From a virus: 59,803 nucleotides of DNA. The translations under genes and the position numbers were made by a program. The DNA is taken from positions 1-59,803 of the IMG/VR virus record IMGVR_UViG_3300032285_002123; one strand, given 5' to 3'. Below the pieces are notes generated by a model that had not been told where the DNA came from, did not search any database, and saw only the letters and a list, made by a program, of their open reading frames with translations. Of this stretch, positions 3,210 to 56,278 are shown piece after piece (the first letter of the stretch is position 1; each line of letters begins with the position of its first letter).

Positions 3210-3869
3210 TTAAATATGAGGTAGTGCCTTTGCAAGAGCAGCATATGTCTGAGGACCAGGAACACCGTCAATTCCTCCAGTGTAACCATATCCAGCCTTA
3301 AGCCACTTTTGAGTAGCAGTCCAAGTTAGCTGTCCTGGAACTCCGTCAATAGCCCCTGTGTAACCATAGTGAGCCTTTAGAAGTGTCTGAATCTTCTTCC
3401 ACTGATCTGCAGTTACAGCTGTTGGTGCAGCTGATGGTGAAGATGCTCCACCGTGAAGCGAACAGTGCCAAACCTCTGAGCTGATATCAAAAATTAGACC
3501 GTGATTAGAAAAGATGGCTTGAACAGTTGAATTCTGACGGCCTGGGCTAACATCAGCAGCCTGTCCCCAACCGTGAATACTAGTTCCTGGAACACCTGCA
3601 GTAGGAGTTTCACCACGCTTCATGCGTCCATACTGGAACCACTGGTTAGAAGTTCCTGTAGATGTCTTGTGTTCATCCTTAATGTACTGATCGGCTGGTA
3701 CACCAAGTGGACGATATCCTTCGTTAATTCCAATGTGAATACCGTGAGCACGAACTTCTGCAAGTGCTGCAACAATTGCTTTTGCCATGGTTGGCTCAAA
3801 ATAATTGCCTTCTACATTTACCATGTCTTTGAGTGGAATTTCACCATTCTTATAATTACCCCATGCCAT
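3210..3869 (-). CDS. endolysin: M15-type peptidase with C-terminal peptidoglycan-binding domain
   Basis: Residues 20-140 match the D-Ala-D-Ala carboxypeptidase/VanY-like M15 fold: H99 and D106 in SIHGWGQAAD and H135 in EVWHC would hold the zinc, with E132 as catalytic base. Residues 153-219 form a PG_binding_1-like domain with two GYTGxIDGVPG repeats. It would cut peptide cross-links in host peptidoglycan at lysis. There is no signal peptide, so it needs the holin (56.4 kb) for release. GGAGGT lies about 12 nt before the ATG. The ATG also overlaps the stop of a 13-codon leader ORF (TAATG), so translation may be coupled to it. Confidence 0.93.
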   Translation of the reverse strand: MAWGNYKNGEIPLKDMVNVEGNYFEPTMAKAIVAALAEVRAHGIHIGINEGYRPLGVPADQYIKDEHKTSTGTSNQWFQYGRMKRGETPTAGVPGTSIHGWGQAADVSPGRQNSTVQAIFSNHGLIFDISSEVWHCSLHGGASSPSAAPTAVTADQWKKIQTLLKAHYGYTGAIDGVPGQLTWTATQKWLKAGYGYTGGIDGVPGPQTYAALAKALPHI

Positions 3870-4528: not shown

Positions 4529-4957
4529 CTAGCTTTCCTCAACATGTTTAATAAATTGTGTTTGAATTTCATGTACATGTTTTGTAAGTTTGTGAACTTC
4601 ATTTGTTAGTTTAAGAATATCTTTTGTCAAAGCTGTTATTTCCTGAAGCTCTTTATATTCAACTTCATATTCATGATCAGCTTTAGCTTCTGCAAATGCA
4701 GATTGTCTATTCTGAGCAATCATAACAAATGTAGACAAGAAAATAGCCTCAAGGCTTACGATCATTGTAAGAAAACCAAATGGGAACTTGTCAAGACCAA
4801 AAAATCCAGACCCCATCCATATACCAAAAACAACAATGTGAATATAAACAAACCCCATTGATCCAGCAAATGCTGTAATTTTATCAGCTATTCGCAAACT
4901 AAATGTATTTTTAGTAGATTCTTTATGCTGTTCTACTACTGGGTGTTTGTTGTCCAT
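4529..4957 (-). CDS. DUF1003 family membrane protein
   Basis: Residues 25-95 match DUF1003: ITAFAGSMGF, then two hydrophobic segments (about 36-52 and 60-80), then LEAIFLSTFVMIAQNRQ. The C-terminal 45 residues form a predicted coiled coil. DUF1003 proteins are bacterial inner-membrane proteins of unknown function, so this may be a host-derived gene. TATGAT ends six bases before the ATG and no ribosome site is seen. Confidence 0.88.
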   Translation of the reverse strand: MDNKHPVVEQHKESTKNTFSLRIADKITAFAGSMGFVYIHIVVFGIWMGSGFFGLDKFPFGFLTMIVSLEAIFLSTFVMIAQNRQSAFAEAKADHEYEVEYKELQEITALTKDILKLTNEVHKLTKHVHEIQTQFIKHVEES

Positions 4958-4972: not shown

Positions 4973-5144
4973 GTATTTTGAACACATGACAGCAAGGATC
5001 TCCGCCCTCTTCCCATTCCTGGGCTTCATCATCTGTCATGTAAGGATCTCCATCGTGAGTGTAACAGAATGATTCTGAAATCCATCCTTTGGCTACCCCT
5101 TTTTCAACCCATTCTTGTAGTTCAAGAACGTCTTCATTGGTCAT
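4965..5144 (-). CDS. small conserved hypothetical protein (59 aa)
   Basis: The ORF runs from ATG 5144. It contains SFCYTHDGDPYMTDDE and EEGGDPCCHVF, a Cys/Asp pattern seen in small actinophage proteins. It overlaps the end of the upstream 40-codon gene by 11 nt, extending the nrd operon. Three cysteines and two histidines could bind a metal. Function unknown. Confidence 0.75.
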   Translation of the reverse strand: MTNEDVLELQEWVEKGVAKGWISESFCYTHDGDPYMTDDEAQEWEEGGDPCCHVFKILI

Positions 5145-5255
5145 TATTTTTTACCATTTCTGCTAGCTTTTCCAAGAACATCTCTCTTTTTTCTTTACTT
5201 GACAAAATTGTAGCCATGTGGCTCCAAAATGCTAGTTCTTCATCTTTTTCTGACA

Positions 5256-5256
<1 letters not shown>
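5134..5256 (-). CDS. small hypothetical protein coupled to nrdF (40 aa)
   Basis: GTG at 5256 shares its first base with the nrdF stop (TAGTG), so it would be read by termination-reinitiation. The protein is a helical, Glu/Lys/Met-rich 40-mer that overlaps the next gene. No homolog is recognised. Position suggests a link to nucleotide reduction, as inference only. Confidence 0.6.
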
Positions 5257-8308
<3,052 letters not shown>

Positions 8309-50697: not shown

Positions 50698-50922
50698 TTA
50701 ACCTAGTGCATTAAGTTCGTTCTGATAAATCTCAATTGCTTTCTGGATTGTTTCAATATCCTTATCAATTGATGCTAGGTTATCAGCATTGTCTTCTTGC
50801 TTTTCTGCTACCTGGCGATTAAGCTCAAGCTTGTATCCCTCTGCAGCAAATTGTTGAATAGTATTAGACAGAATAATCTGCTTCTGTTCTGTTGACAGAA
50901 TTTCATTAAAGTCGATTGCCAT
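50698..50922 (-). CDS. small coiled-coil protein
   Basis: This 74-aa protein is almost entirely helical (NADNLASIDKDIETIQKAIEIY). It has a good ribosome site (GAGAGG) and its own promoter facing the plus-strand cassette. Likely a minor structural or chaperone protein; not recognised. Confidence 0.7.
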   Translation of the reverse strand: MAIDFNEILSTEQKQIILSNTIQQFAAEGYKLELNRQVAEKQEDNADNLASIDKDIETIQKAIEIYQNELNALG

Positions 50923-50972: not shown

Positions 50973-51002
50973 TTGCCTATACTATACAAACGGTGTTATA
51001 AT
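50973..51002 (+). promoter_or_regulatory. promoter of the plus-strand peptidase cassette
   Basis: TTGCCT (50973-50978) and TATAAT (50997-51002, preceded by TGT) are 18 bases apart. It would initiate just before the first leader hairpin. Confidence 0.65.
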
Positions 51003-51008
51003 TGTTAG

Positions 51009-51028
51009 ATACCGTCTTTTGACGGTAT
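51009..51028 (+). promoter_or_regulatory. 5' leader hairpin of the peptidase mRNA
   Basis: A perfect 8-bp stem ATACCGTC/GACGGTAT with a TTTT loop is placed at about +1 to +20 of the transcript. It is followed by TGTTCT, too weak a T run for full termination, so it may be a stabilising or regulatory hairpin. Confidence 0.6.
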
Positions 51029-51046
51029 TGTTCTAAGAGGAACAAA

Positions 51047-51145
51047 GTGACAAACAGAGTAACAACGACGGAACTCACTGGCATACTCAAGGAAATATTC
51101 TACTACCACTGTAAAGAATATTGTCTGCCAGGGTATTTATTTTAA
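51047..51145 (+). CDS. 32-aa leader ORF before NlpC/P60 gene
   Basis: GTG 51047 follows AAGAGGA at 6-nt spacing. The product (32 aa) starts MTNRVTTTELTG and ends YYHCKEYCLPGYLF, with two cysteines (C22, C26) and four tyrosines. Its stop is inside the second hairpin. It could be a regulatory leader peptide for the peptidase. No homolog is recognised. Confidence 0.55.
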   Translation: MTNRVTTTELTGILKEIFYYHCKEYCLPGYLF

Positions 51146-51150
51146 ATACC
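51132..51150 (+). promoter_or_regulatory. second leader hairpin overlapping leader ORF stop
   Basis: GGTATTT/AAATACC is a 7-bp stem with loop ATTTT that includes the leader's TAA. A ribosome finishing the leader ORF would melt it. It is about 20 nt before the AAGGAGG of the peptidase gene. Confidence 0.5.
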
Positions 51151-51181
51151 GCAACAACATAAAAAATAAGGAGGTAGCAAA

Positions 51182-51799
51182 TTGTTTAATAAAAAAATTG
51201 CTGCTGCAAGCATTGGTATTCTTACCTTATCACTTGCAACTTGCTCTAGTACCTTTGCTGGAGCAACACAACTAAATAGTGAACCAAAGACAAGTTATGT
51301 CTTTTCATTAACAGGAAACTCAAATCCTGGCATTGTTGAAACAAAAGCTGCTGAACAAGCAGCTATTATCCAAAAGCAAATTTGGGAAAAAGCTGAGCTA
51401 GAGAATAATACTCTTAATATTAATCAAATGATAAATAAGCTCAAGCATCAAGTTGGCATAACACCATACGTTCCTACAGGTGATTCTACAGATGGATGGG
51501 ACTGTTCTGGAATGGTTAGATGGGGATACCTTGAGATTGGAATAGATCTTTATCATGGTGCTACGCATCAAAGGCATTCTGGAACTATTGTCTCTAATCC
51601 AAAGCCTGGAGATATTGTAGTATTTGGATGGAAGGGTGTTTATGATACTGAACATTCAGCTATTTATATTGGTGATGGTTTAATGATTCAAGCTGGCGGT
51701 AAACCAGGAGATGTTACTAACATTACGTCTGTATATAAATGGGCAAAAGAAAATGATAACACCTATGTTACTTATACAAGAATATTGAATACAAATTAA
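51182..51799 (+). CDS. secreted NlpC/P60 family peptidase
   Basis: A signal peptide (residues 1-27: Lys start, hydrophobic core, cleavage near FAGA) precedes an NlpC/P60 domain with C108 (WDCSGM), H158 (EHSAIYIG) and a third polar position near QAGG (170). These enzymes hydrolyse peptide bonds in peptidoglycan. The signal peptide means it acts outside the membrane, not as the lytic endolysin. It is the only gene on the plus strand, with its own promoter and terminator, like phage morons. TTG start, AAGGAGG 7 nt upstream. Confidence 0.9.
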   Translation: MFNKKIAAASIGILTLSLATCSSTFAGATQLNSEPKTSYVFSLTGNSNPGIVETKAAEQAAIIQKQIWEKAELENNTLNINQMINKLKHQVGITPYVPTGDSTDGWDCSGMVRWGYLEIGIDLYHGATHQRHSGTIVSNPKPGDIVVFGWKGVYDTEHSAIYIGDGLMIQAGGKPGDVTNITSVYKWAKENDNTYVTYTRILNTN

Positions 51800-51804
51800 A
51801 TAAG

Positions 51805-51836
51805 ATACCCCAGGTAAAAAGCCTGGGGTATTTTTT
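51805..51836 (+). terminator. strong terminator of the peptidase cassette
   Basis: A perfect 10-bp stem ATACCCCAGG/CCTGGGGTAT, loop TAAAAAG, then TTTTT. It also folds on the minus strand and may end transcription from the convergent tail gene at 51838. Confidence 0.92.
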
Positions 51837-51837
51837 A

Positions 51838-55228: not shown

Positions 55229-56278
55229 CTACTGTTTTGCTAAGTAAAAGTTTAAATTATTAATAAGTCTTTGATCAGATGGGTTTAGCTCTACCGCTTT
55301 TTTACCATACTTTACCGCTTCTTTATTTTTATTTAAATTAAAAGCTGCAATAGATGCATAGTCATATGGCAAACTTCCCCAAGCAAAATCTTCACAAAGA
55401 TAATCAAGTGGTTTTTCTTTTACTTTAATAGCTTGCTCAGAATATTTAAAACAGTTTTTCCATTCCTCTTTTTCATAGTAATATTGTGCTAATTCTACTA
55501 AGACTTCTCTTCTGTTTCCATCTTCTTTTAATGCCCCCAGCAAATATTCTTCTGCAAGTTCTGGTGTACATTTAGCAAGGTATCTATAAGATGCTGCACG
55601 TTCTGCACTCCAAAGTGCTGTTGGAAGCCCTAGGTGACGTTTAAACTCATTAGCAGCCTGTTCTAGCTGACCATAAAAGAATAGTTCACGAGCATAGTAA
55701 AAAGCATTTCTATCATCATAAGGATCTTCTTTTACAGATGCTTCAAGAAGTGGAAGATATTGTGATCTTGGTTTTGAATTGTCTGGGTGATGATGAATTT
55801 CTAGACCAACCCACTCTTGAACCTCTTCAATTCTGTCTGCTGTGATTACTTCATGAACTGGATGTCTCCAGCGGTATCCATGACGAGCATGAATCTTATC
55901 TCCACCATATTCTAACCCTGGTGTTCCATCTTCATTCCATGACCAAGTATATTTGTATCTTGGACGAGTTGTTTCTTCCTTAATACCTTCAAGTTTTTCA
56001 CGCCATCCGTCAATAAGGATTTCATCCATATCAAGTGCAATACAGATATCAATATCGTTTGGAAGAAGTGCGAGAGCTACATTTCTAGCATCATCAAAAC
56101 GCCAAGGTTTAATAGATACTGGAAAAACTTTGATGCCTAGCTTCTTTGCTACCTCAACAGTCTTGTCTGTTGATCCTGTGTCTGCAATAAGAATGTAATC
56201 AGCATCTTTGGCTGAGTTATACCATCTTTCAACAAACTGTTCTTCATTTAGTGCAATTGTATAAACTGCTATTTTCAT
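55229..56278 (-). CDS. GT2 glycosyltransferase with TPR-like C-terminus
   Basis: Residues 1-200 match the GT2 fold: N11-E-E, D33-T-G-S-T-D, and the metal-binding D83-M-D85. Residues 200-349 form TPR-like helical repeats (YYEKEEWKNCFKYSEQAI, AFNLNKNKEAVKYGKKAVELNPSD). It would transfer a sugar, perhaps to a virion protein or a host surface polymer. It lies between fibre genes, hinting at fibre glycosylation; acceptor unknown. Its leadered promoter follows the holin terminator. Confidence 0.85.
   Translation of the reverse strand: MKIAVYTIALNEEQFVERWYNSAKDADYILIADTGSTDKTVEVAKKLGIKVFPVSIKPWRFDDARNVALALLPNDIDICIALDMDEILIDGWREKLEGIKEETTRPRYKYTWSWNEDGTPGLEYGGDKIHARHGYRWRHPVHEVITADRIEEVQEWVGLEIHHHPDNSKPRSQYLPLLEASVKEDPYDDRNAFYYARELFFYGQLEQAANEFKRHLGLPTALWSAERAASYRYLAKCTPELAEEYLLGALKEDGNRREVLVELAQYYYEKEEWKNCFKYSEQAIKVKEKPLDYLCEDFAWGSLPYDYASIAAFNLNKNKEAVKYGKKAVELNPSDQRLINNLNFYLAKQ

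Follow-up and report, generated by a model that had tools for sequence, protein, structure and literature searches.

Why should a phage carry a standalone gene for a cell-wall peptidase on the strand opposite to its tail genes, and how would such a gene be controlled? The window, a linear virus fragment of 59.8 kb, derives from an actinophage, a bacterial virus of fresh water. At 50973-51836 it holds a predicted exported NlpC/P60 (RipC-like) peptidase gene on the plus strand, antisense to the surrounding tail genes. The earlier note had described this block as a self-contained cassette, and we located each of its parts (promoter, hairpins, leader ORF, peptidase and terminator) as follows.

50698-50922, minus strand: flanking gene of 74 aa, transcribed away from the cassette; homologues of it identify the site as occupied in L262 and L264 and as empty in L258 and L263
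50960-50968, minus strand: outward-facing extended -10 element TGCTATAAT; same arrangement in 21/23 homologous cassettes
50973-51002, plus strand: cassette promoter, TTGCCT-N18-TATAAT, with the extended -10 TGTTATAAT at 50994-51002
51009-51028, plus strand: hairpin H1 at the predicted 5' end of the transcript, from the fold and compensatory changes in A7
51028-51045, plus strand: hairpin HU (TTGTTC TAAGAG GAACAA), enclosing the Shine-Dalgarno (SD) sequence of the upstream ORF; identified from the sequence and kept in relatives
51047-51145, plus strand: upstream ORF, GTG start, 32 codons, in a frame that differs from the 23-25-aa ORF of relatives
51094-51122, plus strand: hairpin H2, AATATTCT (loop ACTACCACTGTAA) AGAATATT, from the fold and compensatory stems in relatives
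51103-51107, plus strand: putative anti-RBS CTACC in the H2 loop, 5' side of the predicted pseudoknot, from RNAalifold and the pair count
51132-51150, plus strand: hairpin H3, GGTATTTA (loop TTT) TAAATACC, from the fold and RNAalifold
51168-51177, plus strand: SD sequence of the peptidase, AAGGAGGTAG, of which GGTAG (51173-51177) is the 3' side of the predicted pseudoknot
51182-51799, plus strand: putative exported NlpC/P60 peptidase, 205 aa, with the codons of Cys108 at 51503-51505 and His158 at 51653-51655
51182-51259, plus strand: predicted N-terminal signal sequence MFNKKIAAASIGILTLSLATCSSTFA, with a type I site or an atypical lipobox
51805-51837, plus strand: intrinsic terminator, a 10-bp GC-rich stem (51805-51831; ATACCCCAGG to CCTGGGGTAT) followed by T6

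All other credible genes of the window, and its three tRNAs, lie on the minus strand; a plus-strand ORF at 5069-5302 was not credible as a gene and has no match in the relative L027. The description of an otherwise minus-strand genome is thus valid for the credible genes and tRNAs of these 59.8 kb but not as a genome-wide statement, because the window is a linear fragment and its portal protein is 48% identical to the portals of ~130-kb Streptomyces phages. Elsewhere in the window, a DUF1003 protein (4532-4957, E = 1e-22) adjoins the three tRNA genes, and one of the genes among those for tail fibres (55232-56278) encodes a glycosyltransferase-TPR protein, classed by PHROGs as a moron (phrog_13126). 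A PADLOC search for anti-phage defence systems gave no match.

The peptidase gene starts with TTG, preceded by AAGGAGGT, and its product matched Pfam NLPC_P60 (PF00877) with E = 2e-14 and 53.8 bits, above the gathering cut-off of 23. The best NCBIfam model, RipC (NF038345), scored 58 bits against a curated cut-off of 425; judged by sequence, the protein would work like RipC without being a member of the RipC equivalog. The best match by sequence among solved structures in the PDB was 'Probable endopeptidase MT2245', which we take to be RipC. The AlphaFold model predicts one long helix followed by the NlpC/P60 fold, with confidence beginning near residue 60 and pLDDT >90 for most of the catalytic domain, and it clearly matches solved structures of NlpC/P60 endopeptidases. 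In neither of the two alignments do Cys108 and His158 vary among relatives. The third catalytic position, His in most relatives, is Gln in the window, a residue tolerated there in NlpC/P60 enzymes; the catalytic Cys and His and the third polar residue of an NlpC/P60 enzyme are all present. A basic and hydrophobic N-terminus was found in 93/93 homologues, about half of which also have a lipobox-like Cys, in keeping with the initial description of an NlpC/P60 gene with a signal peptide. Together, the conserved N-terminus, the predicted fold and the catalytic residues indicate an exported wall enzyme rather than the lysin domain of a tail tip.

The closest cellular homologues are actinobacterial, and the peptidase appears to be of the actinobacterial RipA/RipC type. 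Like RipC and RipA (Rv2190c and Rv1477, actinobacterial NlpC/P60 D,L-endopeptidases), it is predicted to be exported and has its NlpC/P60 domain at the C-terminus, after a helical N-terminal part. However, at 205 aa it is half their size, with a short helix instead of a long coiled coil, and its gene is phage-borne, has an RNA leader of its own and encodes the Gln noted above.

Next, we compared the locus with related viruses. Relatives found through the portal and terminase genes comprised 160 loci; none was confirmed through the 1194-aa tail protein at the sensitivity of that search. Besides the window, only two of the 160 loci have a peptidase gene in the flanking DNA, and the cassette is present somewhere in seven of the 21 long relatives. 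L258 and L263 possess the 74-aa and ~1200-aa flanking genes but no cassette; their site is empty and its flanks are intact. In L262 and L264 the window's site is occupied, and the peptidase and the 74-aa homologue point away from each other as they do in the window. In L027, a window-type cassette is found between TerL and nrdI, a junction that measures 72 bp in the window. The two sequences share 80-86% amino acid identity over most of their common 5.3-11.1 kb part, and the L027 genes that flank the cassette are 51-86% identical to those of the window. A gene for an exported 335-aa repetitive coiled-coil protein (L027:11444-12451) accompanies the cassette there. These comparisons suggest that the cassette is an optional, mobile unit.

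We also examined the signals that would make it independent. A scan for TTGCCT-N18-TATAAT-type sites is no evidence on its own (9 sites found, 9.8 expected). The extended -10 (TGnTATAAT), by contrast, is kept in 23/23 homologous cassettes, and the -35-like TTGCCT at 50973 is not conserved among them, which points to a promoter of the extended -10 type; of the promoter first described, the site and its -10 element stood and the -35 hexamer did not. Back to back with it, ~30-70 bp away, an outward extended -10 occurs in 21/23 cassettes, three short-leader forms included. The two would form a divergent promoter pair, and we infer that its outward half would let minus-strand transcription resume into the tail genes of 74 and ~1200 aa. 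The 10-bp GC-rich terminator exists in the window but is missing from most relatives: a clear one was seen in three of the 23 cassettes (window, L027 and L428), and none in the other 20.

The earlier note had read the block as a moron, an idea that co-oriented, operonic copies in all relatives would have contradicted. Instead, the cassette is antisense to its upstream neighbour in 19 of the 20 distinct cassettes that have this leader and a known upstream neighbour, the exception being L027. The moron reading is further supported, at the level of sequence comparison, by the conserved promoter, the leader, the terminator, the patchy presence between otherwise shared genes and the relocation between close relatives. 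As in phage morons generally, there are an independent promoter, a terminator, a patchy distribution, an orientation antisense to the flanks and a product that is likely host-directed. Unlike them, the cassette also has a structured leader RNA that is conserved and a divergent promoter from which transcription of the interrupted operon would resume, and most of its relatives lack a terminator.

The leader is ~180 nt long and folds with z = -4.1 against shuffled sequences. The two hairpins reported at the outset are present, but there are four in all (H1, HU, H2 and H3). The stems of H1, H2 and H3 are kept through compensatory changes (H3, GC/AU/UA/CG at three pairs; H1, UA/AU/GC). The leader pattern TTGTTCTAAGRRGRACAAA retrieved 13 loci in IMG/VR, and a secreted NlpC/P60 gene follows wherever enough downstream DNA is present; L431 was a chance match. 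Altogether, 20 of 21 distinct leaders precede a full-length WDCSG peptidase, and the remaining one is cut off by the end of its contig. Three short-leader forms (L262, L264 and L410) retain the promoter, H1 and a single SD and lack H2 and H3; in L262 and L264 the SD of HU serves the peptidase itself. We also noted that in L422 the leader RBS drives an 18-aa ORF ending just before the peptidase start (TAATTATG), possibly a further variant of translational coupling. Collectively, these data argue for a conserved structured RNA rather than two incidental hairpins.

No match to the window leader was found in Rfam, no leader lay near the 79 other cellular homologues in host genomes, the type A leader pattern was absent from 300 genomes of the Aquiluna family, and a literature search returned nothing on this gene-leader pair. 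A large comparative screen has reportedly described an 'NLPC-P60 RNA motif'; should Rfam contain it, these leaders do not match it, and otherwise it bears on their novelty. What appears to be new is a conserved leader that is predicted to occlude the RBS and that, in the sequences searched, accompanies only actinophage genes for exported wall peptidases.

Upon closer inspection of the leader alignment, RNAalifold, given no hint, paired the H2 loop (UUGCUAUC) with the SD and spacer of the peptidase (GGUAGCAA). On 17 leaders, 97.1% of the cells of this helix are paired and three pairs have changed on both sides, as against 25-85% for slid registers; two of 500 shuffles scored as high, a figure that overstates significance since the sequences are related. 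Pairs were counted on the alignment because an automatic search for H2 had misassigned L405 and L406, so that the own-versus-mixed comparison built on it gave no difference. L406 changes both partners (loop AAGGCUAUC, spacer GGUAGUCUU), and in the window the helix consists of only five pairs, CUACC (51103-51107) with GGUAG (51173-51177). The covariation points to a long-range helix that joins the H2 loop to the ribosome-binding site of the peptidase, a pseudoknot, and the leader seems built to hide the peptidase's own start signal.

In most relatives, an SD in a small hairpin is followed by an ATG and 23-25 codons that end inside H2. The upstream ORF of the window is shifted by one base against these, has 32 codons and runs into H3; a one-base assembly error may be responsible. 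The 32-aa leader peptide of the earlier note exists as an ORF, but the shifted frame in the window, the variation among the peptides and the lack of any such ORF in L407 led us to reject a conserved regulatory role for it. Since L407 lacks this ORF and the short-leader forms lack H2 and H3, a switch does not appear to be needed by every member.

We consider it probable that the locus is a moron, an accessory and mobile unit of actinophages, and that its leader RNA controls translation of an exported RipC/RipA-type peptidoglycan endopeptidase. The unit would sit antisense in the late tail region, with the divergent promoter pair providing its own start and a restart of the interrupted late operon. 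Pairing of the H2 loop with the SD and spacer, with H3 in the connecting strand, would hide the SD from ribosomes. The start signal would be freed once H2 opens, for which the likeliest cause is translation of the upstream ORF and the alternative is loss of a stabilising factor. Once exported, the enzyme would probably trim the host cell wall from its outer side, independently of late lysis, and the gene would be silenced when the opposite strand is transcribed late in infection.

The same pseudoknot might instead belong to a ligand-sensing riboswitch, in which the helix is stabilised, and the peptidase turned off, by a small molecule such as a wall precursor or a nucleotide second messenger, the upstream ORF being incidental. 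In preQ1-II riboswitches, the RBS is part of the pseudoknot helix, and the connecting strand includes a stem-loop (PMC10907184). The window leader has the topology of this direct-occlusion, H-type pseudoknot, with the RBS in the 3' pseudoknot helix and H3 in the connecting strand, yet it has no sequence or covariance-model match to preQ1-II in Rfam, is preceded by an upstream ORF and would control a wall peptidase. Conserved unpaired stretches (GUCGCCAAG and GUAACAACGAAAAGAAUAA) that exceed the needs of an SD would also fit a ligand, as would the shifted upstream ORF of the window and its absence from L407. We nevertheless regard a riboswitch as unlikely, given that no Rfam riboswitch matches, that the RNA accompanies one phage gene family only, and that an SD, a start and a stop inside H2 in most relatives fit translational coupling better. 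Quite unlikely, in our view, is a stabilising, high-output 5' UTR, whose hairpins would protect the mRNA and whose strong SD would give constant expression with no switch. The hairpin at the predicted 5' end, a perfect AAGGAGGU with an A-rich unpaired stretch before it, and the relatives that manage with H1 only agree with such a role, but it leaves the covariation between H2 loop and RBS and the conserved loop sequences unexplained.

NlpC/P60 domains also occur in endolysins and tail lysins, and the peptidase could be a lysis component, an auxiliary wall-degrading enzyme for late release that merely lies on the other strand. Although the relatives with a type B leader, described below, are co-oriented and adjoin capsid genes, we find this improbable: the cassette has its own promoter antisense to the late operon, its homologues share the secretion signal, the window encodes a separate putative M15 endolysin (3213-3869), from which the peptidase had rightly been set apart, and most relatives, which must still lyse, lack the cassette.

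A pattern scan also placed a second leader, type B, directly 5' of ~81 other exported NlpC/P60 genes on further phage contigs (L001, L003, L005-L010, L015-L019, many of L038-L154, and L156). It consists of a 4-7 bp stem, AGUACUAA, a small hairpin, GAAAGGU and a stem; the outer stem covaries (CGACC/GGUCG, UGACC/GGUCA, CAGCC/GGCUG). Type B is unrelated to the window leader, has no match in Rfam, and its peptidase genes are mostly co-oriented with their neighbours (49/64). Among 300 Aquiluna-family genomes the type B pattern occurred on only one phage-like MAG contig, which hints at Microbacteriaceae hosts for this class. That contig, binned with an Aquiluna MAG (L156/L420), carries the type B leader, the peptidase and a 727-aa gene that, from its N-terminal sequence, is presumably catalase-peroxidase-like. 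A more tentative and rather doubtful extension is that actinophages evolved two new and mutually unrelated kinds of cis-regulatory RNA that gate the export of a host-wall peptidase, at least one of them a ligand-sensing riboswitch reporting on the condition of the host wall or of the infection.

The recurrence of two leader RNAs with exported NlpC/P60 genes across many freshwater actinophages suggests that the timing or dosage of the enzyme matters to a common group of viruses. Both leaders offer new markers for finding such peptidase genes, and they provide a testable case in which structured RNAs absent from Rfam would give phages control over a wall enzyme in the infected cell.
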